From assembly GCA_009838845.1 (NCBI GenBank), contig VXRD01000091.1:1-64000 (forward strand): a DNA stretch of 64,000 nucleotides, in the 5' to 3' direction. Below, piece by piece: positions 5,424 to 58,971 of the stretch. The notes under the pieces are model-generated. The model was not told the DNA's origin and ran no database searches. It saw only the letters and a list, made by a program, of their open reading frames with translations. A program made the position numbers and the translations under genes. Position 1 is the first letter of the stretch; each line of letters opens with the position of its first letter. This stretch comes from Gemmatimonadota bacterium. GTDB taxonomy: Bacteria; Latescibacterota; UBA2968.

Positions 5424-5538
5424 TTAAAAATGATATGCTAATTATTTCGCATAGTATCATTACATAGCAAAGATGCTTTGGGCACGAGTCGCCTGCTACT
5501 TTTAAATGAATATGCCTGCATTTTCTGGAGGTATGCTC

Positions 5539-6231
5539 ATGTTTAAGTATGTCCTCACATTGATATTACTGCTCCTACCTGCCTGTGTACACGCAGCACC
5601 AACCCCATCAGATTGCGATTTCAACAACAGCGGCAAAGTGGATTTTGCCGATTTTATCGCATTTTCACAGGGATATGGGACAACCCAAACCCAGTTCGAC
5701 CTGAACGGGGATGGCGCAGTCAATTTTCGGGACTTTGTCCTTTTTGCCCAATTCTACGGGCAGACAATCACCACAACAACCCCTCCGCCGACCACCGACG
5801 CTCCTGTTGGCATTCAAGTTGGGATGCAAGCCCCCGACTTTACGCTGAGAACCCTCACTGGCGAATCGTTCAACCTCTATGAAAAGCGCGGCAAGCCCGT
5901 ATTCCTCAACTTCTGGGCAACCTGGTGTAGTCCCTGTATAGCTGAAATGCCCGCCATGCAAAAATTGCAAAATACCATGGGTGACTCTATCCAGATCGTC
6001 GGCATTGATGTACGAGAAACGCGCAGCCAGGTGCTGCATTTTGTCACAGGATATGGCTACACCTGGACTTTTGTTCTCGACTCGACGGGAGAAGTGAACA
6101 ATGCGTATGAGGTTACAGGCTATCCCACATCTTATTTTATTGATGCCAAAGGTGTGATTGTCCGTAAGCTTAATGGTTACCAGAACTATGGAACGTTCTT
6201 AGAAGCAACGCGACTGGCGATAGATAATTAA
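5539..6231 (+). CDS. Exported EF-hand (dockerin-like) + thioredoxin (TlpA/ResA-like) fusion
   Basis: The 230-aa protein has a signal peptide (MFKYVLTLILLLLPACVHAA). Two EF-hand calcium loops of the dockerin kind follow at about 27-75 ('DFNNSGKVDFADF', 'DLNGDGAVNFRDF'), then a TTTTPPPTT linker. A TlpA-type thioredoxin domain follows (about 95-230) with the redox site WATWCSPC (Cys130/Cys133), preceded by 'GMQAPDFTLRTLTG'. It should work as a periplasmic or surface disulfide reductase docked through its calcium-binding pair. I chose ATG 5539 because GGAGG lies 7 nt upstream; upstream in-frame ATGs at 5506 and 5533 are less well placed. The LRR gene follows on the same strand and shares the EF-hand type. 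EF-hand/thioredoxin fusion is unusual. Confidence 0.85.
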   Translation: MFKYVLTLILLLLPACVHAAPTPSDCDFNNSGKVDFADFIAFSQGYGTTQTQFDLNGDGAVNFRDFVLFAQFYGQTITTTTPPPTTDAPVGIQVGMQAPDFTLRTLTGESFNLYEKRGKPVFLNFWATWCSPCIAEMPAMQKLQNTMGDSIQIVGIDVRETRSQVLHFVTGYGYTWTFVLDSTGEVNNAYEVTGYPTSYFIDAKGVIVRKLNGYQNYGTFLEATRLAIDN

Positions 6232-6316
6232 AAATAAGCTGTCAGCGGTCATGGTCAAACCATAAGAAAAACAAGCAGTCAGCTTTAATCGAAAGACATT
6301 TGTAATGGAGAACCCG

Positions 6317-8242
6317 ATGCGGAATCTGATTCTATCAATTTTATCACTACTCGCGCTTCTGATGTACCCCCTGTCTCTTTCGGCGCAAAATAGTTTTTCC
6401 CTCTCGCTGGATGTAAATGATACCGCAGGTGATCAAGCAATCACATCCCTCAATGCGTCCGCAGATCAAATTGTCGCCATTCAGATCTTCGGCAAAGATA
6501 TACAAAATGCGAACGGCCTTGCAGCGCGCTTTGAATACGATGCCAGTCAAGTGACTTACGAGGGCTTTGACGTGGGTGACGTCTTGCCCAATGCTCAGGC
6601 ACTCCCAGAGCAAGGTACAGGTTTTGTCGAAATTGGCATTGCATCTCTGGGTGGTCAAGCGACAACCAATAGCGGTCTGGTGGGTACCGTTCGCTTTCGC
6701 ACAACAGCCGGGTTCTCGGGCACAGCGATTCGGTTGGTCCGTGCAGAACTCAGTCGAGGAGGACAATTTGAGACTGTAAATCTGAATATTCGCATTGCGT
6801 TACAGTTACAAGCCCTCACATCGGACTTCGACGGCGATGGTATGGTTAATTTTGCCGACTTTCTGGCATTTGCGGGTCAGTTTGGGACCCGTCAGGGCGA
6901 TGGGCGATATGAAGCGAAGTACGATCTGGACAGCGATGGCGCGATTGGCTTTGGCGATTTTCTGATCTTTAGCAGCAGCTTTGGCAAAGGAGGGCCTTCT
7001 TCTGGCGGTGGCAGTACATTGATCGTTGACATTCCAGATGCAAACCTGCGTGCGGTCATTGCGGACAGTCTGGGCAAGGCGAGTGGTGCGTCGATCAGCA
7101 GAAGAGAGATAGCGAGCGTGACCGTTCTTGAAGTACCGAACTCGAACATCAGAGATTTGACCGGACTGGAGTTTGCAACTCGTCTGACAAGATTAAATCT
7201 TGATATGGAGGGTTTGAGTAATAGTAACCGTATATACGACCTCTCGCCATTATCAAGCCTGACCAACCTGACAAGCCTGGAGCTTTCCTTCACCGGTCTT
7301 ACAGATATATCCGCGCTGGGACACTTGACCAGTCTGACAACGCTATGGCTACGGCATAACTTAATCTCGGATATATCGCCGCTTGCGAACTTAACAAATC
7401 TGGAAGAGCTGCATCTTAGAGACAACTTAATCTCGGATATATCGCCGCTTGCGAACTTAACAAATCTGAAACGGCTGAATCTTAGAGACAACTTTACCCT
7501 GGATATATCGCCGCTTGCGAACTTGACAAATCTGGAAGCGCTGGATCTTGTCTCTAACAACATTTCAGATGTGTCGGCACTGGCGGGCTTGACCAACCTG
7601 ATAGGGCTGGATCTTAGCTCTAACAACATCTCGGACGTGTCGGCACTGGCGGGCTTGACCAACCTGATAGTGCTGGTGCTTGGCGAAAACGCGATCTCAG
7701 ATGTCTCGACACTGGCGGGCTTGACCAGGTTGGAAAGGCTGGATCTTAGCTCTAACAACATCTCAGATGTGTCGGCACTGGCAGGCTTGACCAACCTGAT
7801 AATGCTGGGGCTTGACTCTAACAACATCTCGAATGTGGCTATACTGGCGAACTTGACAAATCTGATATATCTGGCGCTTGGCAACAACGCGATCTCGGAT
7901 GTGTCGGCACTGGCGGGCTTAAACTATCTGACGGGACTAGGTCTTTCGCGCAACACTATCTCGGACATCTCGGTACTCTCAGACTTGACCGGTCTGAAAT
8001 GGCTGTATCTTGACTACAACACCATCGTGGATATCTCGCCATTAGTGGCAAATACGGGATTGGGCAGTGAAGATAGGGTTGATTTGAGAGGAAACCCGCT
8101 AAGTGCCACATCAATCAACACGCACATTCCAGCCCTTCAAGGCAGAGGGGTTGATGTGATCTTTGGTGCGTCGAAGCCTGCGGTAGGTGAGAATGAGCGG
8201 GGTTTATTTACCCCTCATCTTCCCGCTGATACGACGCCGTAA
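6317..8242 (+). CDS. Exported cohesin-like + EF-hand + leucine-rich-repeat protein
   Basis: The 641-aa secreted protein has a signal peptide ending near 'LSLSAQ'. A cohesin-like beta-sandwich (about 22-155: 'IVAIQIFGKDIQNANGLAA', 'VTYEGFDVGDVLP', 'VGTVRFRTTAGFSG') comes next. An EF-hand pair follows ('DFDGDGMVNFADF', 'DLDSDGAIGFGDF'), and then about 15 internalin-like 22-residue LRRs with consensus 'LTNLxxLDLSSNNISDVSALAG'. It probably mediates surface protein binding. ATG 6317 has GGAGA at good spacing; ATG 6305 is the alternative. Its last 35 bp overlap the convergent queF gene. It is probably co-transcribed with the upstream thioredoxin fusion (about 85 nt gap). Confidence 0.85.
   Translation: MRNLILSILSLLALLMYPLSLSAQNSFSLSLDVNDTAGDQAITSLNASADQIVAIQIFGKDIQNANGLAARFEYDASQVTYEGFDVGDVLPNAQALPEQGTGFVEIGIASLGGQATTNSGLVGTVRFRTTAGFSGTAIRLVRAELSRGGQFETVNLNIRIALQLQALTSDFDGDGMVNFADFLAFAGQFGTRQGDGRYEAKYDLDSDGAIGFGDFLIFSSSFGKGGPSSGGGSTLIVDIPDANLRAVIADSLGKASGASISRREIASVTVLEVPNSNIRDLTGLEFATRLTRLNLDMEGLSNSNRIYDLSPLSSLTNLTSLELSFTGLTDISALGHLTSLTTLWLRHNLISDISPLANLTNLEELHLRDNLISDISPLANLTNLKRLNLRDNFTLDISPLANLTNLEALDLVSNNISDVSALAGLTNLIGLDLSSNNISDVSALAGLTNLIVLVLGENAISDVSTLAGLTRLERLDLSSNNISDVSALAGLTNLIMLGLDSNNISNVAILANLTNLIYLALGNNAISDVSALAGLNYLTGLGLSRNTISDISVLSDLTGLKWLYLDYNTIVDISPLVANTGLGSEDRVDLRGNPLSATSINTHIPALQGRGVDVIFGASKPAVGENERGLFTPHLPADTTP
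7360..7560 (+). repeat. Near-identical 66-bp LRR-encoding tandem repeats
   Basis: Three consecutive 66-bp units encode LRRs with almost the same DNA, for example 'ctcggatatatcgccgcttg' in consecutive copies. A second nearly identical group (GTGTCGGCACTGGCGGGCTTG) continues to about 7920. Such DNA identity indicates recent duplication and scope for copy-number change. Confidence 0.75.
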
Positions 8243-10223: not shown

Positions 10224-10301
10224 CTGGATTACTGGCGTTGTGCTTGCGCGTGGCGGCTTACAGCATGCCGCAATGACGGGCGAGGCATGCCTCGCCCCTA
10301 C
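10224..10301 (+). repeat. Interspersed repeat copy 2 (core + GGGCGAGGC hairpin)
   Basis: An expanded, imperfect core (CTGGATTACTGGCG ... GCCGCAATGAC) is followed directly by the hairpin GGGCGAGGCATGCCTCGCCC and CTAC. The rest of the 10151-10400 gap holds no gene. A short 'ctgaccgctaa' tail and the cysC leader follow. Confidence 0.8.
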
Positions 10302-45503: not shown

Positions 45504-45544
45504 CAAAAAAAAGGCCACTGGACAAAATGTCCAATGGCCTTTTA
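45504..45544 (-). terminator. Rho-independent terminator of the 699-aa secreted protein gene
   Basis: A 16-bp stem (AAAAGGCCACTGGACA / TGTCCAATGGCCTTTT, one mismatch) with a 4-nt loop is followed on the minus strand by a T-run. A repeat copy lies between it and the gene end. Confidence 0.88.
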
Positions 45545-45631: not shown

Positions 45632-47728
45632 CTACTTCAACAGCAGCATCTTCTGGATCGCGGTATTTGGACCCGCTTTGATCTTGGCGATATAAACGCC
45701 ACTACCAACGCTGCGGCCCATATGGTCCTTAGCATCCCACTGGACACTATAGCGACCCGCCGTATAATGCTGGCTCACGAGTTGACGAATCTCCTGCCCA
45801 ATCGCATCGTAAATAATGACGGACACAGCTGTGTCAGTGGGCAACTCGTAGGAAATCGTCGTCCTCGGGTTAAACGGATTGGGATAAACAGCCGAAGAAA
45901 ACTCTGTGGGCAGGGTGAAACGCGCGCCCAACAGCACCTCAATCGGATTCGAAAGGTTAACCGTCCCATCCAGATCAATCTGCTCGAGAACATAATAAAC
46001 GATCTCAGCAGCGGGAAGACTATTATCCTCAAACATATAATCCATCAACTGATCGGTCGTACCAGCACCAGAGATAAGCTCGCTAACCGCCTCGTAGGTC
46101 TCTCCATCCGTGCTGCGAAGCACGCGGAAACCCGCATTATTGGTCTGCGAAGCCGTGGTCCAATTAATCACCACGCGGTCTTCAACCACCGAACCGACAA
46201 ATGACGACAACTCAACCGCCACCTGCTCGGTAAATTGAATGGTGACCTCAAGAGCTTCCATCATACCATCCGAGGCTGTCACCTTCACAACCGAAGAAAC
46301 ATAACCAGCGGCTGTCAAAGTCAGGACATTACCATCGACCGAATGTTCAATCGTGGATTGTGGATCATCGCCCACACCTTCTAGGAGATCTACAGTGAAC
46401 GTAACCGTAGCCCCTTCGGGAAAACGCAAGGCTGTAACCGTAACCACCGCAGTGCCACCGCGCGGGATTGTATTGATGAGACCAGGTGACACATCCAGAC
46501 CCGGACCGTGGTTATACAACACCGGAGCAGGCACAGGTAGCATCGATTCCTCGCCGGAAGCGAGAACGCCTCTAAACGACGCAACGCCAACTGAAAAAGG
46601 CATCTCCTCGGCACCCGTCATCAGCTTCAGCGTACCCAAAAAACCACCATTGGACAGCATCACCGCTTCTTCGGCACCGACATCGATCTGATTGCCGGAA
46701 ATACCCAGCAGCGTCATACCTTCAGCAGGCGCAAAATCCGTGATCGTTGCCGCAGAAGCCGGATCAACCATAAACACAATACTCGCACCGCCGAGACCAC
46801 CTTCTACATCACCTGCAAACACCTCAATAGCAATCTCTTCATTGGCACCGGCACTGGCCGAGAGCATGCCATCATCCATCATATTCATCATGTCCATGCC
46901 GACAACGGCATCCAGTGAGGGGAGCCTCACTTCGACAAACTCAATCGTAATCGGATCGGTCGTCGTCATGCCATCACTCGCCGTCACCGTCACCTTTGCC
47001 GGGCCACTCGCCGTCAACGTCAGCTTGGCACCATCCATCATGGACTGAACCATCTCGATCATTTCGCCCTGTACATCAAACGTAATCGTCGCATCCGCGG
47101 CAAAATTCACCGCCGTTACCACGACCGACCCCGTGCCACCTGGCGGCACCGGAATCATCATAGACATATCCATCATAGACATATCTGTCATCAGCCTGGG
47201 CTTGACATTAAAGTTAATCGTACTCATCATCGCCATCATCTCTGGCGCGATGACATCGCTCGACGCTGCACTTTCGGCAAGCGTCACCGCTTTAATGCCC
47301 AGATGGAATTCCATATCCGTCACATCTGCCACAGTAGAAAACTCGGCGCGTCCAAGAAAACCGGACTCGGGCAGTGAAACAGGCGCAGTCGCTGCAAAAT
47401 TTACGCCCGTCGCCTCTGGAATAGCAAACAGAAACGCGCTATTCTCGACCTTATCGAGCTTTAACTCTTCAGATTTAAAATCAAATTCGATCTTCACACC
47501 GACCAGCGACGTGGTCACGCCCTTGGCGAAAACCTCAACTGCAATTTTTGTGCCCTGTCCAGAGACATTGCCAGCATGAACGCCATCGTCCGTCTGATTG
47601 CCTGCTCCGCCATCGGTAATCAAATCAATCGACACCGTCGCATTTGCATTGGGACCAGCAGAGGCTTGACCCGCAAACGCCAGAAATGCAAGGGCAGAAA
47701 AAAATAACAATCCTCTTTTCAAAAACAT
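45632..47728 (-). CDS. Secreted cohesin-like/Ig-like protein with FlgD/T9SS-type C-terminus
   Basis: The 698-residue class protein has a signal peptide (MFLKRGLLFFSALAFLAFAG, then QASA). Two cohesin-like modules follow ('GTKIAVEVFAKGVTTSLVGVKIEFDF', 'NEEIAIEVFAGDVEGGLGGASIVFMV'), with Ig-like repeats ('GTAVVTVTALRFPEGATVTFTV') and an FnIII-like part ('ELSSFVGSVVEDRVVINWTTASQTNNAGFRVLR'). The C-terminal domain has 'VYPNPFNPRTTISYELP', 'YDAIGQEIRQLV', 'GVYIAKIKAG' and ends 'QKMLLLK'. The last part looks like a type IX secretion/FlgD-Ig sorting domain. ATG 47728 matches the paralogue's start, with AAGGAG upstream. Note an odd Met-rich stretch ('MTDMSMMDMSMMIPV'). It is probably a surface protein. 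Confidence 0.85.
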   Translation of the reverse strand: MFLKRGLLFFSALAFLAFAGQASAGPNANATVSIDLITDGGAGNQTDDGVHAGNVSGQGTKIAVEVFAKGVTTSLVGVKIEFDFKSEELKLDKVENSAFLFAIPEATGVNFAATAPVSLPESGFLGRAEFSTVADVTDMEFHLGIKAVTLAESAASSDVIAPEMMAMMSTINFNVKPRLMTDMSMMDMSMMIPVPPGGTGSVVVTAVNFAADATITFDVQGEMIEMVQSMMDGAKLTLTASGPAKVTVTASDGMTTTDPITIEFVEVRLPSLDAVVGMDMMNMMDDGMLSASAGANEEIAIEVFAGDVEGGLGGASIVFMVDPASAATITDFAPAEGMTLLGISGNQIDVGAEEAVMLSNGGFLGTLKLMTGAEEMPFSVGVASFRGVLASGEESMLPVPAPVLYNHGPGLDVSPGLINTIPRGGTAVVTVTALRFPEGATVTFTVDLLEGVGDDPQSTIEHSVDGNVLTLTAAGYVSSVVKVTASDGMMEALEVTIQFTEQVAVELSSFVGSVVEDRVVINWTTASQTNNAGFRVLRSTDGETYEAVSELISGAGTTDQLMDYMFEDNSLPAAEIVYYVLEQIDLDGTVNLSNPIEVLLGARFTLPTEFSSAVYPNPFNPRTTISYELPTDTAVSVIIYDAIGQEIRQLVSQHYTAGRYSVQWDAKDHMGRSVGSGVYIAKIKAGPNTAIQKMLLLK

Positions 47729-47780
47729 TTGCAAGACTCCTTCGCTGAAAACTACTCCTTGTAAGTTCTAAATGACAAAT

Positions 47781-47812
47781 TAAGGGCGAGACATAGGCAT
47801 GCCTCGCCCTTA
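47781..47812 (-). terminator. Hairpin after the 1257-aa secreted protein gene
   Basis: A 10-bp perfect stem (TAAGGGCGAG / CTCGCCCTTA) lies 6 nt after the stop and is followed on the minus strand by ATTTGTCATTT. It is a version of the GGGCGAGGC repeat module and may double as a terminator. Confidence 0.6.
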
Positions 47813-47817
47813 CCGAA

Positions 47818-50800
47818 TTACTTGAGCAGCATCAGCTTCCGCACATCCTGGAACTTCCCTGCCGAGAGCTGGTAGAAATAAATACCACTCGAAACCGGCG
47901 TCCCGCGATCATCCATACCGTCCCAACGGACCTGATAACGACCAACCGACTGCGGTTCAGCAGCAATCAGCGTCCGAACGACCTGACCCACCACATTGTA
48001 AACCTGGAGCGTCACATCGGCGGACTCGGCCAATTCGTACCCGATCGTCGTGTCGGGGTTAAACGGATTGGGGAAATTCTGGAGCAGTGCAAACTCTGTA
48101 GGCGTCGTCTGGATATCCAGCACACCGCCAGCCAATGGATTGGCGAGTTGACTCGGATCGAAAACCAGACCCTCGGCAATCTCAAACCGCGCATTATCTT
48201 CAAAATCGCGCAACACGCGGAACACCAACCGAACAATATCGCCACCGCCGGAAACCTCCGAACCATTGACGATCGCATTCATAACGTGAACCTGCCCGGC
48301 CTCAGGCGACCAACCCCTCAACAGCGGCGTCTCGCCACCTGAAGACAAAAGCAAATCTTCAGCAACTGGCATCGCCTCTACAAACTCGAACTTCTCGGCA
48401 TCGTAGTTAAGCACAAACCCATAACCCATCAGAGCCTGCACATTGGCGAGAGACACATCCACAAACATATTCTCGCCAGCCACCACGCGATCACTGCCCA
48501 AACGCAACGTCAACTCGGCAGTCTCATTCACGCCAGGAGGCGGAATCAGAGACTTGCCAGCCGGACCCTGCGCTTCTTTGCCATACGAGCTAAAGAACAG
48601 GATAAAGTCATCGAAATTGACCATCTTATCGTCATTCAGGTCAGCCTGAACAAAGACTCTCCAGTTCTCGTGCGTCTCATCTGTATTAAACGCCATCGTA
48701 AAGGCTATAAAGTCTTCAAAGTCAACCGTCAGCGGCGTTTGAGTTTCCCCGTGCCTGGGAAGTCTGACAATATAAACGGGATTGCCATCTGCATCCACAA
48801 ATCCCCTGCGCGTGGGCGTAAGCTCAACAAGTAGAGGAACACTTGGCGTCATATTGGTACCGTCCATCGCAACCACAGACACCAGCACCGCGGGCAGACC
48901 CTGATTAATCAGAGACTCGATCAAAGCCTGGGGAACCTGGAAACTGCCCGAACCAGCGGGCGCAGGCCCGATATCAATCATCGAATCTTCGCCAGCACCG
49001 CCTCTGACCACGTATCCCGTCACGTGCGGAATCATAATCCCGTAACCGCGATACATCACAATATCCATGCCGCCATCATCGGCGGACACCGTCCAGGTAA
49101 CCATTCCGGTCTCAACATCAGCGGCGAGACCAGTCGCAGCAGCAGGGGCTGTATCGTCAACCGCAGCCACCATATCTTCCGTCGCCGTAATTGCAGACGA
49201 AACAATGGGACCAGATCCATCCGTGCGGATATTCTGCGGAACAGCCAAATCGCCACCGACGAGCACACTCAAATCGGGATCCAGAGCCGCAAACACCACA
49301 TTCTTCTGGTTCCCAATAAGCGCGTTCAAATAATCAGCAGAAGGCATAAACACCTGTGCGAGCTCATCCTCGGTCACAACGAGATTGGGATCCAGACCCA
49401 GGAACTGAACCAACTGTTGCACGCTCTCCTTGGAGAACACGCGCTTGCCAGCAGGCGTAATCACATCCTCTGCCGAACCCATACCGGTCTCGGCAGCAAC
49501 GCCCCAGCGGGTTGCCTTCGCATCCGTCACCGGAACAACGGCGCGCGTCGTACCATCATTATCCATCGCATCGACAACAGCCCAGGCGACCCACTCTGCC
49601 ATCGGGTTACCCTCTGAATCATTCACCATCATCTCGCGATAGACGCGATACTGACTCACATCTCCGTGATTTTCCGAATTGGCAAAAGTCACCATCACAT
49701 AGTGACCATTGTCGCCTTCCTGATCCTGCACCATCACACTCGCAGGCGCAGCGGGCTTCATCTGGCTAAACGAAACTTCTACCGCAGCCGTCGTAACGCC
49801 GGCACCAGAAGCCGTCACACTCACAGAAACTGGACCCGTGGCCGTCAAGGACAAAACATTGCCATCCTGTGACATTGAAAGATCACTCTCTGAACCACTC
49901 GTCACCTGGACATCGAACGTAACCTCAGCACCTTCGGGAAAACCAACAGCCACGACCGATGACGAACCGCTGGGAACAACAGACTGAGGAACCTCGACAT
50001 CAGCCATATTTGTCGTAACAGAAGGCATCGCCCTGAAGATAACCTTCAACGCACTTGTCTCCTTACCGTCACTATCCATGGCTTTCAGCGTCACCTCAGC
50101 AGAACCTTCACCACTACCCGTCAACGTGACCATAGCACCATCCGTAACAGCATTAACCGACGCTGTACCGGATACTTCGGTGAACGTATAAGTAATACCG
50201 TCACCCAGACCCGTTGCCGTAACTGTCACCGTTGCCTCTCCACCAGTCGGAATAATAACATCGGCGTTATCTGCCGTCAGATAAGGCGGAGGATTCACAA
50301 ACGAAATCGTCAGCGGAGCCGTCGTCGCCGTGCCATCGGTGGCCTCCATCGTCACATCCCCGGGATTACTCGTCGTCACCGTCCAGGTCGCAGCACCAGC
50401 ACCTGTAGCAAACCCGGCACCACCCGTAATTTTAAAATTAATCTCGGCACCGGCATCAAAACCGATAGCCGTAACCATCGCTGAAGCTGAGGCACCAAAA
50501 TCTGAAAACACCACCTCGGTACTCTCAGTCTGTAGTTCCGGTGGTGCCTTGGTAAAAACAACCTCAACCGGACCAAGCGCCACGCCACCGACCATTGCCG
50601 ACACCGACACTGTGGCATTGCCCGTTGCGGACAACATCACAGAATTACCATCATCCGACACTGTGCCCGCACTGGCGGGATCTACGGTAAACGCAACCGC
50701 TTTGCCCTGCGTATCCATCGCGGTCACCGTCGCCGTACCCGTCTCGCCGTGGCCAACCGTAACCGCAGTTGCGCTCGCCTCGAGATAGGGCGCGAACTGG

Positions 50801-51591
50801 ACGACCGTCAAAGCATCACCACCACCCACACCCCTCCTCATTCCATCTGCAGTAAGCACCGTAAACGAGGCAACACTAATGGTAAACTCAGTGGCATCGG
50901 GATTCACTGTAAACGTCACAGAGCCGTAACTCCCGCCATCCAGCATCACAGCCGGTATGCCGAGAAGTGTAACGCTCATACCACTTACGCCGCCCGGAGG
51001 TACTCCCAAACCGGTAGCAGGCATACCACCTGTGATCGCCGCCGCTCCAGCGGGTTCAACCGCAAACATGATCTCAGCACCAGTCGTTGCTTGCGCCAAA
51101 TCGGGAACAGCGACATTGACGACGAGTTCACCATCGTCATTGATTGCGCCATCACTCGTCAAAGCAGCTTCAATGCCATTAAACGAGACCGCAGCGGATG
51201 GGGTAAGTGTAAGGCCATCAAGCGTAACCGACTTAATGCCAATGGAAAATTCCTGACCCGCCACATCTGTGTTTGTCGTAAAAGTGAAAGGAACACTTGC
51301 TGGCACAGGTACTGCACTAATAGATAACAGGGAAACCGTGCCGGGATCTGGTTGTAACCAGCCAGCAGGTGCAGCAAGCGTTAAAAGAGACTGGTCAAAA
51401 TCAAATTCAACCTGTATGGCATTTACGGATTGGGTAATACCCGTTTGGGACACGACAACCGTAATTTCCGTGCCCTGTCCAGAAACCTTGCTTGGAGTAC
51501 CCATGATCGAGATACTCTGCGCAGAAGCCTGCCCTGCAAATATCAGCAATGCCAAAGCAGTCATAGACAAAAGACTTTTTTTCAAAAACAT
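47818..51591 (-). CDS. Large secreted Ig/cohesin/EF-hand protein with FlgD/T9SS-type C-terminus
   Basis: The 1257-aa protein has a signal peptide (MFLKKSLLSMTALALLIFAG, then QASA) and an N-terminal cohesin-like domain ('GTEITVVVSQTGITQSVNAIQVEFDFD'). Several Ig-like repeats (about 270-600, each like 'GETGTATVTAMDTQGKAVAF') and an FnIII-like region follow. An EF-hand pair about residues 985-1050 ('DFEDFIAFTMAF', 'DLNDDKMVNFDDFILFF') comes next. Then come a second cohesin-like domain ('GSDRVVAGENMFVDVSLANVQALMGYGFVLNYD') and the NPFNP C-terminal domain ending 'VRKLMLLK'. AGGAG lies 6 nt before ATG 51591. It is highly similar to the 2097-aa neighbour over the last roughly 270 residues, so a tandem duplicate is likely. 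Confidence 0.87.
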   Translation of the reverse strand: MFLKKSLLSMTALALLIFAGQASAQSISIMGTPSKVSGQGTEITVVVSQTGITQSVNAIQVEFDFDQSLLTLAAPAGWLQPDPGTVSLLSISAVPVPASVPFTFTTNTDVAGQEFSIGIKSVTLDGLTLTPSAAVSFNGIEAALTSDGAINDDGELVVNVAVPDLAQATTGAEIMFAVEPAGAAAITGGMPATGLGVPPGGVSGMSVTLLGIPAVMLDGGSYGSVTFTVNPDATEFTISVASFTVLTADGMRRGVGGGDALTVVQFAPYLEASATAVTVGHGETGTATVTAMDTQGKAVAFTVDPASAGTVSDDGNSVMLSATGNATVSVSAMVGGVALGPVEVVFTKAPPELQTESTEVVFSDFGASASAMVTAIGFDAGAEINFKITGGAGFATGAGAATWTVTTSNPGDVTMEATDGTATTAPLTISFVNPPPYLTADNADVIIPTGGEATVTVTATGLGDGITYTFTEVSGTASVNAVTDGAMVTLTGSGEGSAEVTLKAMDSDGKETSALKVIFRAMPSVTTNMADVEVPQSVVPSGSSSVVAVGFPEGAEVTFDVQVTSGSESDLSMSQDGNVLSLTATGPVSVSVTASGAGVTTAAVEVSFSQMKPAAPASVMVQDQEGDNGHYVMVTFANSENHGDVSQYRVYREMMVNDSEGNPMAEWVAWAVVDAMDNDGTTRAVVPVTDAKATRWGVAAETGMGSAEDVITPAGKRVFSKESVQQLVQFLGLDPNLVVTEDELAQVFMPSADYLNALIGNQKNVVFAALDPDLSVLVGGDLAVPQNIRTDGSGPIVSSAITATEDMVAAVDDTAPAAATGLAADVETGMVTWTVSADDGGMDIVMYRGYGIMIPHVTGYVVRGGAGEDSMIDIGPAPAGSGSFQVPQALIESLINQGLPAVLVSVVAMDGTNMTPSVPLLVELTPTRRGFVDADGNPVYIVRLPRHGETQTPLTVDFEDFIAFTMAFNTDETHENWRVFVQADLNDDKMVNFDDFILFFSSYGKEAQGPAGKSLIPPPGVNETAELTLRLGSDRVVAGENMFVDVSLANVQALMGYGFVLNYDAEKFEFVEAMPVAEDLLLSSGGETPLLRGWSPEAGQVHVMNAIVNGSEVSGGGDIVRLVFRVLRDFEDNARFEIAEGLVFDPSQLANPLAGGVLDIQTTPTEFALLQNFPNPFNPDTTIGYELAESADVTLQVYNVVGQVVRTLIAAEPQSVGRYQVRWDGMDDRGTPVSSGIYFYQLSAGKFQDVRKLMLLK

Positions 51592-51612
51592 TACAAACTC
51601 CTATATGAAAAT

Positions 51613-51652
51613 ATGGATCGGGAAGTTTCCCAGATGAGACTTCCCGATCCAT
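51613..51652 (-). terminator. Hairpin terminator of the 2097-aa secreted protein gene
   Basis: A perfect 14-bp stem (ATGGATCGGGAAGT / ACTTCCCGATCCAT) with a 12-nt loop is followed on the minus strand by ATTTTCATAT. It lies 7 nt after the stop. Confidence 0.8.
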
Positions 51653-51659
51653 CGGCGAA

Positions 51660-54600
51660 TTACTTGAGCAGCATCAGCTTCCGCACATCACTGAACTTTC
51701 CGTCTGCCGAAATCTGGTAGAAGTAAATTCCACTCGAAACCGGCACACCGCGATCATCCATACCGTTCCAGCGAATCTGATAGCGACCCGCATTCTGCGC
51801 CTCGGAAGCGACCAGCGTCCGAACCACCTGACCCAACACATTGTAAATCTGGAGCGTCACGTCGGCGGACTCGGCCAAATCGTACTTAATGGTCGTATCC
51901 GGGTTAAATGGATTGGGGAAGTTCTGGTGCAAAGCGAACTCTCTGGGCGTACTCTGAAGTTCCAGCACACCCGCGACCACCGCCGGATTGGAAAGCTGAC
52001 CCGGGTCAAAGACCAGACCGTCGGCAATCTCAAACCTGGCGTTATCCTCAAACTCGCGCAACACGCGGAACACGAACCGAACCACATCGCCACCGCCGGA
52101 AATCGCCGTGCCATTATACAGACCATTGGCAACGGTAACCTGACCGTCGGCAACCACATGGTGGAACAGCGTCTCTCCACCTGTTGACTTGAGCAGATCC
52201 TCATCGGCAGGCGCCACACTCACGAACTCGAACTTATCGGACTCGTAATTGAGCGCGAACCCATAACCGACCAGAGCAGCGACATTGGCAAGCGACACAT
52301 CGACAGCCACCGTCTCGCCAGCGACCACGCGCTCACTACCCAAACTCAGCGAGAACTCAGCATTCTCGTTTACGCCGGGCAGCAACACGAGCGGCTTCGT
52401 CGCCGGACCAACAGCTGTCTTGCCAAAGGACGTGATAAACTCGACGAAGTCAGCGACATTAACCATGCCATCGTCATTGACATCGGCCTGAACATTGTAA
52501 TTATCATCGCCTTCGCTGCTACCAAACGCAGCAACCAGAGCGAGGAAGTCAGCCACGTCAACTGTCATATTCTCTGCAGAGATGAGATAAACCGGATCGC
52601 CGTTTGCATCGACAAACTGCTTGCGCACTGGCTTAGGCGGCGTATCGTCAAAGACAATTGTCAACTCGCCCGTCTCATACAGACCATTCGTAGCCGACAC
52701 CATCGTCGTACTTGCCACACTCGCGGTAATCATCAACTTGGCAACGCCATCGTCATCGGCTTCCACGGTCCCTGCATCCTCACCGTTCCGGGTAAAGGTC
52801 ACCATATCGCCAGCATTATAGCCTTCGGCTGCGACCGTGACCGTTATTTCACCGGGATCAGCGGGAATCATAACATCTTTACCCGCCTGATCCTCTTCCA
52901 TACCGGGCACCCAGAGCGTAAGCATAGGTGTCAAAGGAGCAGAAATCTTGAACTTCGCAGTACTTCTGATGTTCTGGCTTCGGGTATCGCCCTCTTTCAA
53001 GGACCCATTCACGACCCTGACCTGAACCGTCTGACTGCGTCTATTGTCAGGTGCGACGAGATCATAAGTCTCGCCATCCTTCCCGATACTCAAGATCAAC
53101 AGAGCAAAGTCTTCAATAGCGGGAACGCCGATAATTTCGACATCAATGCCATTCTTATATTCAAAGGCACCACTGTCTCCCACTCGGGTATCCAGCACAT
53201 CCAGGGAGTCGTCGAAATCAGCCGCAAACGCTCTTACCGAGGGGTTGCCATGCCTATCGACCGGGACCACCCGAAGGGTGTAATCGCCCCAAATCTCTTG
53301 TGCAGCGCCTTCTACGCCTTCTTCCCAGGCGGTTATATCAAACCCGGCAAAGTCGGCAGCACCAACGTAGAGACTATCGATTGCACTACCAAATCCCACG
53401 ACTGCTGTATCACCCATACCGGAATCCAGATGCTCGACCATAATCTTGATGAAACCAGTAGCCTTGTTCGACTTGACCGTAACTGTGCGCTTACCAATTC
53501 TCCAATCGGCAGCACTCAGCATAGCCTCGCCATCGGGATTATCGGCATCATCTGTCACGCCCGTGCCTTCAAACCACACGGACTCGGCAGCACCACCGTC
53601 TGTATCCCAGGCACTGATCCGCGCCATGTTCTTATACGTCAGCGCCATGCGCTTCGTATCAGACCCGGCATCGTAATCTTCAGCCTGAATCGTCAGCATA
53701 TTTGCCTGACCAGCAATCACAGAGTCCATCCCGGCTTCGAATGTGTACCTGGTCGCTATCGGATTATCGAATTCTGCGTTAAATCGCATACCCGAAGAGG
53801 AATCCGCAGGCGTGATATAGATATTACCCGCGAGATCGCGGACAAATATCGTCATATCATAGCTTGTCTCATCCGTTAACTCACCAGAGAAATCGAAGCT
53901 ATCTTCGCCCTTTGTCGTTACCCCACCACGTTCCTTGATGACATCGGCTCCACCTGTCGCAGTGAACCTGACCGCAATCGAGTCCACGTCTTCCGGCAGT
54001 GTAAAGACCGGCGGTGTCGCATCGTTAAACTGGTCCTCTTCAAGCAAACGGTTCTTGGGGAACCAGTCCGTAAGCTTTGGAGGTGCTGCATCGTGCGTAA
54101 CACCAGAAATCGTCGTCTTGGTTGTGTTACCCAATATATCTGTCGCCAAAACAGCGAGTTCTATGTCTGTACCGGCTATATTCGCGCTCGATGGCACGTA
54201 GGCTTTGCCCGGATATTTATCATCATCGCCTTCCCCGTCTTTCTTCGGAGAGCTGAGATCGTACGTTTCATAAGTAACGGTTGAATCCCCTACACTACTC
54301 GAAGAAAACTGGTCAGTGATATCCAGGGTATCCGCTCCGACTGCAAAGACCTCGAGCATGGAAAGATCTTCATCCACTTCAACGACCAGAGGATTGAGAA
54401 ACTCACTATAGCCATGCACATCATCCGATGTATGACCTGTAAAACGCAGGGGATGCGCATGATCATAGATACTGTCGGGATCCGCAGCAGGATACCGGAT
54501 CGTAACGCCCGGCGAACGAGAGTCAATGGCAAACGTCTTTTTGAAGGCAACACTACTATAGTTGCCCGCCTGATCATTTACCTGTACAAGGACCTCACCC

Positions 54601-57600
54601 GTCGCTTCATCCGGCTCAAAGAAGACACCTTGCCGTCCTATACCCTCGACATAGTTATCGGTTTTAAATCGGAAGAATCCTTCATTTACCGTCCAGGAGA
54701 CACGCAATGAATCTGCGGTGGAAGCGATGACCTGAGCAGCACTAAAGTTGACGGTCTTAGCCTGAGGTGCGACATCGCCAGCAGGATATGAGACGCCTCC
54801 CATAGCTGTCCCGGAACCATCAACAGGCCGTACCTGAACCCGGACACCAGAGTCTCGGAAAAGAACATTTCCACTAACCTTGATAGCGACGCGAATATCA
54901 TCGCCAACTGTAGCAGTAATACCCGAGTTCACTTCTTCGTCGTCCCCTGACCCAGATGTAACCCTGACATCAGTAATGGCAGAGTTTGAAGGCGCGAGAT
55001 TATCAACCTTAAACAACTTCCCGTCACCTCTGTATCTGTTCGCTTCATCCACAAGTGTGGGATTAGAAGGATAAACCGCTTTGTCTGAATCCCTATTTGT
55101 GAATGAGTCTGAAGCTTGACCAGAAGTGAACTCAATATGCACATACGCGCCCAGATATTGACCATCCCTCGCCGGATCTGTAGTACCCGAATCATCGCGA
55201 GGTCTTATCCTGATCTCAAATCGGATCGTGTCATTGCCGCGCCAGATAACATCACCGCGACTGCGACTTCCCGGTTCCTCAAAAGTAACGGATCCGTTGT
55301 CTTCGAGGTTAAAATTTCTCGCGGTTACGGCATCAATCTCATGAGCAGGATCTGAATTATCATGAGCCGTATCGCGCACCGAGGCCTTAATACTCTCAAA
55401 CTGCGACCAGGGATACGCTACGCTACCGACGCGCATCACATCAACAACGACCTTGTCATTGCCTATGATTGCCCAGCCATTTGCTGCTGGCTTGACCAGG
55501 ACAACGCGATAACCCTGGAGATCAAAGGCGGATCGAGTTGTTACGGGAATCACGCGCTCACTCGCATTATACATATCCGCCGAGGCAGTCACGGTAATCA
55601 TCGTACCCTCAGTTGCTGCATCAGCCGCAGTAAGGGTCAGTGTGATTTTTCTCGTGCCATCGGGAGAGTCCTGATCGGGAATGAGGTCAACGTGATCCGC
55701 CATAGCTATTGAAACTTCGGCAGACATGGGGTTATTCGGATCCACAGTCACAAAGGCAGCATTGGTATTCGTGGTATTCTGGAACGATCCTAAGGTGGTA
55801 GTCAAAGTCGCGACGACCGTACCGTCATCCTCCAATTTATCGAATAGCAAGCCCTTCACCGTCAAAATCACGTTCGTAGCTTCACCCGTAGTCACACTGG
55901 GTGGACTGGCAGCAGTGATTGTGAGGTCTCCGATAGCATTATCATCATCCAGGACTGTAATATCTGCAGAGTCTGACATATAACCATCGGCCACAGCACT
56001 ACCTGTCACCCGGATTTTTCTATTCGTAAGCACATCGTCATCAGACGGATCAAGCGATAGCGTGGTTGATCCAGAGGCAGAACCAGCCGCGATCTCAATC
56101 GTGCCTGTAGGCGTGGCCGTCGTAATCTCCTCTGGTGTTCCCGTCATCATGGTAGTCACCATCACCGTCACGGGCCCTGTCCCCTCAGACAATGTCGCGG
56201 TTACTACCACATCTCTCGCACGAACATTTTCTCTAATCTCGTCCAGACTGAGAGAGATCATGATGTTTCCAGCAGAGTCACCATCATCGGTTATGGTAAG
56301 GTCAGCCATACCCGATTCTCCCCCAGCCGTAGCGGTAATCTGAACCGTTTCGTCATCCGTATCACCGTCTTGCGCTGGATCAATCGAAAAGGTTACAGTG
56401 ACTGAGCTGGTCATGTTAGCTGGGGCAACGGCGTTTCCGTCAATAACCACCTCGGTATCTTCAAGATCTGCAATGGTGTAATCCCCAGATTCCGCAGTAC
56501 CCATAGCAGAACGCAAGGCCACATCCACAGTCACAGTAGTACCTGCTCCCACCGCAGAATTCAGGGTAACGGTCACCTCTGCTGTCACGGTAGTTGAACC
56601 GTCCGCTTCCATCACGCTACTCGGAGAAAGCGTGATTGTGACCTCTTCCACTTCTCCTTCGCTTATTCCCAGGTTGGCTCTACCCATGTGACCAGCAGCC
56701 GCAGCTTCAAGTACAGCCACTTCGCTATCATTATCAGCATCTGCAGCTGGCTGAAAACTAAAGAGTGCCCGCCCTGTGCCACTCATTGCGCCTTCGGAAA
56801 TATTAACCACAACGTTAAAGGCGGTTATAGCGGCGTAATCCCCATCTTCTGCTGTACCTATATTATCATCGGTCGTAGCGACATCATCATCTGCACCATC
56901 AGCATCAGTAATATCGCTCACGGCCACAGTCACTGACATATTCGATTCCGCCATAGCAGCCAGAGTAACGGTCGCCTCTGCGAGCACCGAAGTGGTGGTC
57001 CCTTCCTTAAAGTTATCATCAGGAGAAAGGGCGAGCGCAACGCTTGATAAGAGTTCTGTTATGGTCAGGTTAGCTCTAACACTTTGACCAGCATCCGCAT
57101 TTGCAGCTTGAATTACAACCATTTCGTCATCAGCATCATCAGTATCTGGAGCTGGATCGAACGTAAAGGTTCCTTCCGCTGTGCCACTGGTTGCGTCTGC
57201 TTCAACAGTCACTGTGATAGGATCACCAGCGGTAAATGTAAAATCAGCAGCTTCTGCTGTACCTATATTATCAGCAGCTGTCTCCAGATCACCATCAGCA
57301 CCATCAGGATCAGTAATATCGGTCAGGGTCACAACCACTTCAGTATCTGCTGACGGAGCTTCATTCAGAGTAACCATCACCTCTGCTGTCACGGTCGTTG
57401 CATCAGCCGTGTCAACAAAGCTATTCATATCGAGCGAGATCGTAATGCTTGATATGAATTCTTGTATGGTCAGGTTAGCTGTACCAGTTTTTTCATCAGC
57501 GTTCTCGCCAGTCGCAGCTTGAATTACAAGCGTTTCGTCATCAGCATCACCAGCACCATCAGGAGCTGGATCAAACGAAAAGGTTCCACTATTTGAGGCA

Positions 57601-57953
57601 CTCATCTCACCAGCTTGAAAAAACACCTCAATGGGAAATGCTGTTATAGCGGCGTAATCCGCAACTTCTGCTGTGCCTATATTATCAGCAGCTGTCTCCA
57701 GATCATCATCGGCACCATCAGGATCGGTAATATTGCTCACGGTCACAGTCACTGCCATATTCGATTCCGCCATAGCAGCCAGGGTGACGGTCACCTGTGC
57801 TGTCACGTCAGTGGCATCGTCCGTGTCAAAAACGCTATTCGGAGCAAGGGTGATTGAGACAGTTGATACATCTTGTGCATAACTATCTGGCACTCCAAGC
57901 CCAAACACCAGCAAGAGAGTTGCCAAAAAGCCAATTGTTTTGTGAAAATTCAT
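51660..57953 (-). CDS. Giant secreted repeat protein (2097 aa) with EF-hand, cohesin-like and FlgD/T9SS-type domains
   Basis: The signal peptide (MNFHKTIGFLATLLLVFGLG) is followed by at least five Calx-beta-like repeats of about 110 residues ('VTAQVTVTLAAMAESNMAVTV', 'DITDPDGADDDLETAADNIG'). A long middle region of Ig-like and adhesin-like domains ('PSNSAITDVRVTSGSGDDEEV', 'FAIDSRSPGVTIRYPA') comes next. An EF-hand pair ('DVADFLALVAAFG', 'DVNDDGMVNVADFVEFITSFG'), a cohesin-like domain ('GSERVVAGETVAVDVSLANVAALVGYGFALNYE') and the NPFNP C-terminal domain follow. ATG 57953 has TAGGAGGT 6 nt upstream; the frame upstream (to 58214) is repeat sequence. It is probably calcium-dependent and surface-exposed. 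DNA-level similarity between repeats suggests recent expansion. Confidence 0.87.
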   Translation of the reverse strand: MNFHKTIGFLATLLLVFGLGVPDSYAQDVSTVSITLAPNSVFDTDDATDVTAQVTVTLAAMAESNMAVTVTVSNITDPDGADDDLETAADNIGTAEVADYAAITAFPIEVFFQAGEMSASNSGTFSFDPAPDGAGDADDETLVIQAATGENADEKTGTANLTIQEFISSITISLDMNSFVDTADATTVTAEVMVTLNEAPSADTEVVVTLTDITDPDGADGDLETAADNIGTAEAADFTFTAGDPITVTVEADATSGTAEGTFTFDPAPDTDDADDEMVVIQAANADAGQSVRANLTITELLSSVALALSPDDNFKEGTTTSVLAEATVTLAAMAESNMSVTVAVSDITDADGADDDVATTDDNIGTAEDGDYAAITAFNVVVNISEGAMSGTGRALFSFQPAADADNDSEVAVLEAAAAGHMGRANLGISEGEVEEVTITLSPSSVMEADGSTTVTAEVTVTLNSAVGAGTTVTVDVALRSAMGTAESGDYTIADLEDTEVVIDGNAVAPANMTSSVTVTFSIDPAQDGDTDDETVQITATAGGESGMADLTITDDGDSAGNIMISLSLDEIRENVRARDVVVTATLSEGTGPVTVMVTTMMTGTPEEITTATPTGTIEIAAGSASGSTTLSLDPSDDDVLTNRKIRVTGSAVADGYMSDSADITVLDDDNAIGDLTITAASPPSVTTGEATNVILTVKGLLFDKLEDDGTVVATLTTTLGSFQNTTNTNAAFVTVDPNNPMSAEVSIAMADHVDLIPDQDSPDGTRKITLTLTAADAATEGTMITVTASADMYNASERVIPVTTRSAFDLQGYRVVLVKPAANGWAIIGNDKVVVDVMRVGSVAYPWSQFESIKASVRDTAHDNSDPAHEIDAVTARNFNLEDNGSVTFEEPGSRSRGDVIWRGNDTIRFEIRIRPRDDSGTTDPARDGQYLGAYVHIEFTSGQASDSFTNRDSDKAVYPSNPTLVDEANRYRGDGKLFKVDNLAPSNSAITDVRVTSGSGDDEEVNSGITATVGDDIRVAIKVSGNVLFRDSGVRVQVRPVDGSGTAMGGVSYPAGDVAPQAKTVNFSAAQVIASTADSLRVSWTVNEGFFRFKTDNYVEGIGRQGVFFEPDEATGEVLVQVNDQAGNYSSVAFKKTFAIDSRSPGVTIRYPAADPDSIYDHAHPLRFTGHTSDDVHGYSEFLNPLVVEVDEDLSMLEVFAVGADTLDITDQFSSSSVGDSTVTYETYDLSSPKKDGEGDDDKYPGKAYVPSSANIAGTDIELAVLATDILGNTTKTTISGVTHDAAPPKLTDWFPKNRLLEEDQFNDATPPVFTLPEDVDSIAVRFTATGGADVIKERGGVTTKGEDSFDFSGELTDETSYDMTIFVRDLAGNIYITPADSSSGMRFNAEFDNPIATRYTFEAGMDSVIAGQANMLTIQAEDYDAGSDTKRMALTYKNMARISAWDTDGGAAESVWFEGTGVTDDADNPDGEAMLSAADWRIGKRTVTVKSNKATGFIKIMVEHLDSGMGDTAVVGFGSAIDSLYVGAADFAGFDITAWEEGVEGAAQEIWGDYTLRVVPVDRHGNPSVRAFAADFDDSLDVLDTRVGDSGAFEYKNGIDVEIIGVPAIEDFALLILSIGKDGETYDLVAPDNRRSQTVQVRVVNGSLKEGDTRSQNIRSTAKFKISAPLTPMLTLWVPGMEEDQAGKDVMIPADPGEITVTVAAEGYNAGDMVTFTRNGEDAGTVEADDDGVAKLMITASVASTTMVSATNGLYETGELTIVFDDTPPKPVRKQFVDANGDPVYLISAENMTVDVADFLALVAAFGSSEGDDNYNVQADVNDDGMVNVADFVEFITSFGKTAVGPATKPLVLLPGVNENAEFSLSLGSERVVAGETVAVDVSLANVAALVGYGFALNYESDKFEFVSVAPADEDLLKSTGGETLFHHVVADGQVTVANGLYNGTAISGGGDVVRFVFRVLREFEDNARFEIADGLVFDPGQLSNPAVVAGVLELQSTPREFALHQNFPNPFNPDTTIKYDLAESADVTLQIYNVLGQVVRTLVASEAQNAGRYQIRWNGMDDRGVPVSSGIYFYQISADGKFSDVRKLMLLK

Positions 57954-58329: not shown

Positions 58330-58490
58330 AAAAAACAATACCCCTTCTGTTTTGTTTAACGTTTGGTTCATGGGAACTGCTCCACATTAAATATACGACG
58401 GGCTAATTATATGCAATCAAAATGGTAGTGTCAAGCGTTTTTTCTTTGATAATGATATGATAATAAAAAAGAAACGCAAAGGCAATCAGA

Positions 58491-58971
58491 ATCAGGATTT
58501 ACAGGATGAAAGGATGAACAGGATGAAAGGCAAAAGCGAAAAGCAAAAAACATCCGCAGATGACGCAGATGGACACAGATGAAAACGGGTTAAAAGGCAA
58601 AATGCAAAGGCGAAACCTTCTGGATCGCGGCTCAAAATCACGCCGCGATGACAACCAACAGCACGGGACGGCAAAGGGGCCGTCCCCTACAACAACACGC
58701 CGCGATGACAAAAGACGGGACGGCACTGGAACCGTCCCCTATAATATAATGAATATAAGGCAAGAATAAAAGCAAATAGAATCAGGATTTACAGAGCCTG
58801 CACTGAAGTGGTTCTATCCAGTGATGAAAGGATGGACAGGATAAAATCTAAAGACAAAAACAAAACCAACGGCAAAACCTTCTGGATCGCGGCTCAAAAT
58901 CACGCCGCGATGACAACCAACAGCACGGGACGGCAAAGGGGCCGTCCCCTACAACAACACGCCGCGATGAC
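58491..58971 (+). repeat. Dense composite repeat region (core copies 16 and 17)
   Basis: It contains two CAGGAT tracts (58491 and about 58780), two cores (58620-58652 and 58882-58914), and several GGGACGGC ... GCCGTCCCCTAC hairpins. A 97-bp segment (58613-58709) is repeated exactly at 58875-58971. No coding gene is supported in 57954-58998. Confidence 0.88.

Follow-up and report, generated by a model that had tools for sequence, protein, structure and literature searches.

A candidate operon of type IX-exported cohesin scaffolds in a genome of Candidatus Latescibacterota

The window analysed here, a 64,000-nt stretch of contig VXRD01000091.1, belongs to a genome of Candidatus Latescibacterota (assembly of 5.75 Mb, 97.8% complete) and carries three genes, P3, P2 and P1, lying head to tail on the minus strand in that transcription order. 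We favor, at a probability of roughly 0.55, the reading that these genes form an operon of cohesin scaffolds exported by a type IX secretion system (T9SS) and anchored at the surface, where they would display a dockerin-tagged secretome. This reading is drawn from sequence, namely, from the domains of the three proteins, the T9SS core genes, the dockerin set, the gene-order history and the hairpins.

In the mechanism we propose, each scaffold would be a rod of immunoglobulin (Ig)- and Fn3-like domains with a type A C-terminal domain (CTD) at its end. SprA, PorV and PorU would export P1 to P3 via the CTD and fix them on the cell surface, and the cohesins of P2 and P3 (less surely that of P1) would hold dockerin-tagged, Sec-exported proteins there. 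The displayed cargo would comprise chondroitinase-B-like lyases, sulfatases, GH10 and GH113 enzymes, an S41 peptidase, and leucine-rich-repeat (LRR) and beta-propeller proteins. Stem-loops after P3 and P2, lacking a long U-tract, would tune the relative mRNA levels, and only the last hairpin would terminate transcription.

Sorting domains and secretion genes

An earlier note on this DNA had described three tandem genes sharing a C-terminal NPFNP domain. Both points stand, except that P1 is 698 aa long from its ATG and not 699 aa, the open reading frame (ORF) opening with a TTG at 47734.

51660..57953, minus strand: P3, 2097 aa; signal peptide, Calx-beta-like repeats, long Ig-like middle (P3mid), degenerate EF-hand/dockerin-like dyad, cohesin, T9SS type A CTD
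47818..51591, minus strand: P2, 1257 aa; P1-type signal peptide and N-terminus, Ig-like part, Fn3-like part (P2fn), degenerate EF-hand dyad, cohesin, T9SS CTD
45632..47728, minus strand: P1, 698 aa; a pair of beta domains homologous to each other (the second cohesin-like in fold), Ig-like, Fn3-like, T9SS CTD
51672..51920, minus strand: T9SS type A CTD of P3
47830..48075, minus strand: T9SS type A CTD of P2
45644..45889, minus strand: T9SS type A CTD of P1

The Calx-beta-like and Ig-like labels on P3 were assigned by eye, and by eye the N-termini of P1, P2 and P3 likewise look like typical Sec signal peptides. The type A sorting model TIGR04183, which matches at 14 places genome-wide, scored 39.1, 38.7 and 39.9 bits in P1, P2 and P3, respectively (cut-off 23), and the Pfam family FlgD_ig was over its cut-off in all three. 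Type IX secretion genes, for which the earlier note had proposed to look elsewhere in the genome, are present. SprA/Sov was found at 618.7 bits (TIGR04189, cut-off 200), and 23 of 27 PorV-family matches were over the cut-off, the PorV/PorQ family reaching 230 bits (cut-off 90) and the PorV equivalog 167 bits (cut-off 250). The genome also encodes a PorU-like protein of 1894 aa with propeptide and C25 peptidase domains (Peptidase_C25, 257 bits, over the cut-off).

Two further loci with T9SS signals were observed. Locus L035 (C15:22158-27650) is a row of PorV, a dockerin-tagged glucose/sorbosone-dehydrogenase-like protein and a T9SS M6-like CTD protein. Locus L034 (C98:27503-35091) holds four tandem CTD proteins of 593 to 623 aa, another T9SS cargo array, of which the one tested gave a weak dCache_2 match.

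Cohesins, dockerins and competing readings

The earlier note had also assigned an EF-hand/cohesin module to the two larger proteins, and correctly so for the cohesin: the last 334 residues of P2 and P3 are alike at 64% identity, and Pfam confirms the cohesin. The full cohesin-CTD module is thus a property of P2 and P3 and is absent from P1.

51987..52349, minus strand: cohesin of P3 (PF00963, 42.4 bits, cut-off 24.1; AlphaFold2 model against 2vo8, Z 18.1, 1.9 A over 131 residues)
48148..48507, minus strand: cohesin of P2 (PF00963, 36.9 bits, cut-off 24.1)
46505..46909, minus strand: cohesin-like fold in P1, residues 274-408 (AlphaFold2 model of modest confidence against the CipA cohesin 4fl4, Z 10.9, 2.7 A over 126 residues)
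50653..51591, minus strand: N-terminal region of P2 homologous to the P1 N-terminus (27.5% over 367 columns, E 4e-16; the first domains paired at 96% by hhalign)

When the P3 module was modeled with AlphaFold2 (mean pLDDT 79), cohesins made up the top 40 rows of structure matches, and as judged by profile and model the P2/P3 module contains a genuine cohesin. For P1, the picture is less clear. The model has a mean pLDDT of 62.6, Foldseek with the whole model returned mostly generic Ig strings, and the cohesin-like fold at residues 274-408 had neither a Pfam match nor hhalign support. The number of cohesins is thus one sure copy each in P2 and P3, that of P1 being cohesin-like by fold only. It had been claimed that the N-terminal parts of the three proteins differ completely, which holds for P3 only, since residues 1-331 of P1 align with residues 1-313 of P2, signal peptide included. 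We also considered whether these homologous N-terminal domains of P1 and P2 might themselves be cohesins. Compared with the C-terminal cohesin by hhalign, they reached no more than 5%, and Pfam gave nothing, the P1 model alone hinting at it.

Searching the genome with the module alignment gave 86 matches, which by a hand tally were P2, P3, one cohesin and CTD protein of 281 aa (C27), 9 CTD-only and 74 EF-hand-only places. The cohesin of C27 scored 20.6 bits in Pfam, below the cut-off. Two more proteins, C41 and C89, carry a cohesin and a dockerin together.

The candidate partners are numerous. Dockerin_1 matched 44 times in the genome, 42 of the matches being marked over the cut-off. We examined 45 ORFs from the dockerin search, namely, those with loci returned; L125 among them is the cohesin and CTD protein, and a single gene underlies both L156 and L185. 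In the 42 ORFs where the dockerin was located (hand count), it was C-terminal in 20, just after the signal peptide in 18 and internal in 4. A hydrophobic N-terminal stretch was present in 34 of the 36 with their own start, and two calcium loops in 38/44, by a motif looser at two positions than the one used below for the P2/P3 dyad. Pfam identified LRRs in eight, chondroitinase B in two and sulfatase in two of these ORFs, and further WD40 and other beta-propellers, GH10, GH113, peptidase S41, esterase, AhpC/TSA, VWA and NHL domains. The dockerin of an LRR protein matched dockerins of known structure from complexes with cohesins (2y3n_B, E 9e-7). The sorting domain fell outside the 25 most frequent NCBIfam families of the dockerin set, a list that reaches down to two members, indicating that the dockerin and CTD sets are nearly disjoint. 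Two candidate partners adjoin each other in the window:

5506..6231, plus strand: dockerin-tagged AhpC/TSA-thioredoxin protein with an N-terminal dockerin
6305..8242, plus strand: dockerin-tagged LRR (internalin-like) protein (Dockerin_1 20.3 bits, cut-off 22.9, in one search; 23.4, over, in another)

Across the phylum, a strong match to the module was found in 57/64 genomes. All 21 genomes of the order have the module, although in some of these the best match is the cohesin and CTD part only; a small cohesin and CTD protein akin to C27 occurs in many genomes of the order. Dockerins average 33.5 per genome in the window's own genus (n = 11), 13.2 in other members of the family (n = 4), 20.8 in the sister family (n = 6), 11 in family f3 (n = 1), 4.2 in family f4 (n = 25) and 2.5 in the rest of the phylum (n = 17). 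The lineage thus shows a dockerin expansion, and over the 64 genomes dockerin and cohesin-CTD module numbers correlate at a Spearman coefficient of 0.43.

Several observations weigh against the scaffold reading. On the export side, the PorU-like protein scored 341.6 bits with NF033707, below the equivalog cut-off of 420, and TIGR03517 detected no PorM/GldM at E 0.1 in the 97.8% complete assembly, where a divergent PorM is possible and PorL, PorK and PorN were not searched. Because PorM/GldM was not found, we limit the claim to P1, P2 and P3 carrying a T9SS type A cargo signal, which would imply surface export, and do not extend it to a complete canonical T9SS. No secretin was found in the genome assembly, which led us to reject a type II secretion route for the dockerin proteins; as these carry no CTD, their passage across the outer membrane lacks an explanation. 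On the binding side, cohesins are few, with four PF00963 matches and C27 set against 44 dockerin matches. No carbohydrate-binding module was found in P1 to P3 at E 0.01 (Pfam), and the likeness to scaffoldins is therefore one of working alike and not of membership. Within the order (21 genomes), dockerin and module numbers did not correlate significantly (Spearman -0.23), and the 25 genomes of family f4 average 3.9 cohesin-CTD modules for their 4.2 dockerins. Since f4 has modules but few dockerins, the module is older than the dockerin expansion, which weakens a strict scaffold reading. Finally, the surface location, the cohesin-dockerin binding and the hairpin function of the P1-P3 system are what we infer from the DNA.

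Some of these points favor the view that P1 to P3 are ordinary T9SS surface adhesins or S-layer-like fibers, in which the cohesin would be a beta-sandwich spacer binding none of the genome's dockerins. The missing correlation within the order and the module copies in relatives with few dockerins agree with it, as do the P1 model, a string of Ig- and Fn3-like domains, and the existence of noncellulosomal cohesins, two of which (2xdh and 2vo8) are among the structure matches of the P3 module. Yet the cohesin is over the Pfam cut-off and, unlike the flanking domains, which turn over, has been retained in all aligned copies of the module. Many secreted proteins of this genome, moreover, bear canonical dockerins. 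We therefore hold the spacer view to be possible but rather unlikely.

A variant of the scaffold reading would also give the CTD-less dockerin proteins a way out of the cell: a cohesin-CTD carrier (P2, P3 or the 281-aa protein) might bind them in the periplasm and take them, folded, through SprA. The nearly disjoint dockerin and CTD sets and the missing secretin fit such hitch-hiking through the T9SS, which we nevertheless consider improbable. Were it true, the cohesin-dockerin pairing would act as an adaptor not in display alone but also in export.

Self-assembly, in which the EF-hand dyad of one scaffold would dock in the cohesin of the next to give a fiber or layer without other partners, is suggested by the dyad adjoining the cohesin in P2, P3 and their homologues, but seems improbable as well. 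By a strict motif, the first loop was canonical in 0/16 and the second in 9/16 P2/P3-type dyads, P2 being among the seven without the second, and PF00404 had no match to the dyad in its own genome. We thus rejected the dyad as a working dockerin, and since 38/44 dockerin ORFs do have two loops, other proteins are the more likely partners of the cohesins. That the FlgD-like domain serves a purpose other than T9SS export is very improbable: FlgD_ig alone is unspecific and the GldM/PorM family was not found, but the genome has SprA/Sov, PorV-family proteins and a PorU-like sortase, TIGR04183 is over its cut-off, and flagellar FlgD models match the C-terminal domain of P1 to P3 only far below theirs.

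History of the locus

The scaffold reading gains a history from gene order, which we compared in 13 regions from 13 genomes. Eight of these regions have a two-gene state: a large gene combining P3mid, P2fn, the cohesin module and the CTD, followed by a P1-type gene. Five of the eight come from genomes of a sister family, one from a genome of the same genus (G020) and the rest from two further genera of the family. The three-gene state was found in the window's genome and in G014, G015 and G016, the other regions of the genus with the whole locus. In G012, P3-P2 runs up to the contig end, and in G017, P2-P1 starts from one. Among separately named loci, which possibly come from the same genomes, L046, L047 and L049 are P3-P2-P1, and L045 and L048 are P3-P2 up to the locus end. 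P3 keeps P3mid and lacks P2fn, P2 keeps P2fn and lacks P3mid, and module and CTD are in both. The simplest reading of this pattern is that the large gene of an ancestral pair was duplicated, that the copies underwent reciprocal domain loss and that the second gained a P1-type 5' end. The relatives' gene order thus supports the earlier view of modular surface proteins diversified by duplication and domain swapping.

In many relatives, the locus is followed by a Gfo/Idh/MocA gene and by genes that we take to be a proteasome ATPase and a Dop/PafA-like gene. Because the same neighbors follow in many genomes, the locus has been inherited in place. In the two-gene locus of G020 (L194/L228), the P1-type protein is enlarged to 1912 aa, and the first hairpin has a 7-T tract.

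The synonymous divergence (dS) of the C-terminal modules, a comparison the earlier note had suggested, points to an old P2-P3 duplication. Between the P2 and P3 modules of one genome the mean dS is 1.08 (n = 5), and between those of different genomes it is 1.00 (n = 25), while orthologues differ by 0.28 to 0.38. Since the two paralogue values are about equal and far above that of orthologues, recent gene conversion is not indicated. At the 3' end of the module, P2/P3 dS drops to 0.27. We examined recent conversion as a cause and rejected it, the last 100 columns giving 0.51 within and 0.54 between genomes and the orthologue dS dropping there too. Among orthologues as well as paralogues, synonymous divergence is low over the last 100 codons of P2 (47821-48120) and P3 (51663-51960). 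The five P2 rows are monophyletic in the tree (100/100), whereas the full module leaves the P3 rows unresolved, and on the CTD these group at no more than 91/88.

Promoter, stem-loops and known systems

Only one promoter-like site in a 16-kb scan fits all 12 consensus positions, and it is likely the promoter of the operon. Each gene had been described as having its own hairpin terminator. A strong hairpin does lie 3' of each gene, but a long U-tract follows only that of P1.

58406..58434, minus strand: promoter-like site about 450 nt ahead of P3, with 12/12 sigma-70 positions (consensus scan only)
51613..51652, minus strand: stem-loop after P3, 16 bp, T-run 4, not terminator-like (z -3.62 against shuffles)
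47779..47814, minus strand: stem-loop after P2, 15 bp, T-run 3, interspersed palindrome family (z -3.44 against shuffles)
45509..45543, minus strand: intrinsic terminator after P1, 16 bp, T-run 8 (z -4.96 against shuffles)

We rejected the two internal hairpins as terminators for their short T-runs; behind each, the next ribosome-binding site is close. The 3' flank was readable for 37 genes that bear the module or are similar large CTD genes. A stem of at least 10 bp follows 35 of them and a T-run of at least 6 only 2, against 4/5 ends of P1-type genes with such a T-run (three more rows, of other kinds, entered neither count). The position of the stem-loops is kept across families, and their sequences differ. 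In one sister family, 3/16 stem pairs show double changes, the covariation score being above all 500 shuffles and the number of pair types average; these compensatory pairs give modest support to the hairpins. By analogy with the clostridial operon described below, the internal stem-loops probably set relative mRNA levels and may set subunit ratios, although the P2-P1 hairpin may be a mere copy of an interspersed palindrome.

This palindrome family, GGGCGAGGCATGCCTCGCCC, has 8 hits in the window at no more than 2 mismatches, against 0.23 expected, among them those at 10278, 39634, 41282, 44318, 45584 and 47795; one copy is the P2-P1 hairpin. Another intergenic repeat, AACCTTCTGGATCGCGGCTCAA...GCCGCGATGAC, lies on both flanks of the operon (44267, 45388, 58600 and 58862), with a 110-bp copy duplicated at 58600 and 58862.

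Among known systems, the cellulosome-like complex of Candidatus Stygibacter (Cloacimonadota; PMC8542988) is alike in that it, too, belongs to an uncultured, non-clostridial bacterium. It combines enzymes that bear dockerins with a scaffoldin-like protein that bears cohesins and has been proposed to attach itself to the surface by a C-terminal domain. Its scaffold is one 3,755-aa protein with tandem cohesins and carbohydrate-binding modules, whereas here we found a duplicated operon with one sure cohesin each in P2 and P3, no such binding module, and LRR, WD40 and propeller proteins among the dockerin bearers. In the same phylum as the present genome, cellulosome genes or domains were reported from three orders of Latescibacteria (Farag et al. 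2017, as cited in PMC5991650 and PMC7081726). Sponge-associated Latescibacterota with LRR, NHL and WD40 proteins have also been described (PMC12993501), in the accessible text of which the term "dockerin" was not found.

The cip-cel operon of Clostridium cellulolyticum is subject to selective RNA processing and stabilization, and 28/33 processing-linked stem-loops genome-wide lack a U run (PMC4423207). It too is a scaffold operon with stem-loops at gene 3' ends; its genes, however, are unrelated to P1 to P3, and here the enzymes lie outside the operon. Type A cargo of Bacteroidota (TIGR04183) resembles P1 to P3 in signal peptide, Ig/Fn3 domains and a PNPFNP-containing CTD, the differences here being the phylum, Latescibacterota, and the undetected PorM/GldM. 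We found no paper linking Latescibacteria or Latescibacterota to type IX secretion, in a literature coverage that is incomplete and hence no proof of absence.

If the scaffold reading is correct, eukaryote-like repeat proteins and polysaccharide-degrading enzymes would be shown on the cell surface by a T9SS-anchored cohesin-dockerin system. This would give such secreted proteins of an uncultured lineage a concrete route of attachment. The phylum Latescibacterota includes sponge associates. The locus is also a clean natural case of a multidomain surface gene split by duplication, domain partition and N-terminal replacement, with the docking and export module held fixed.

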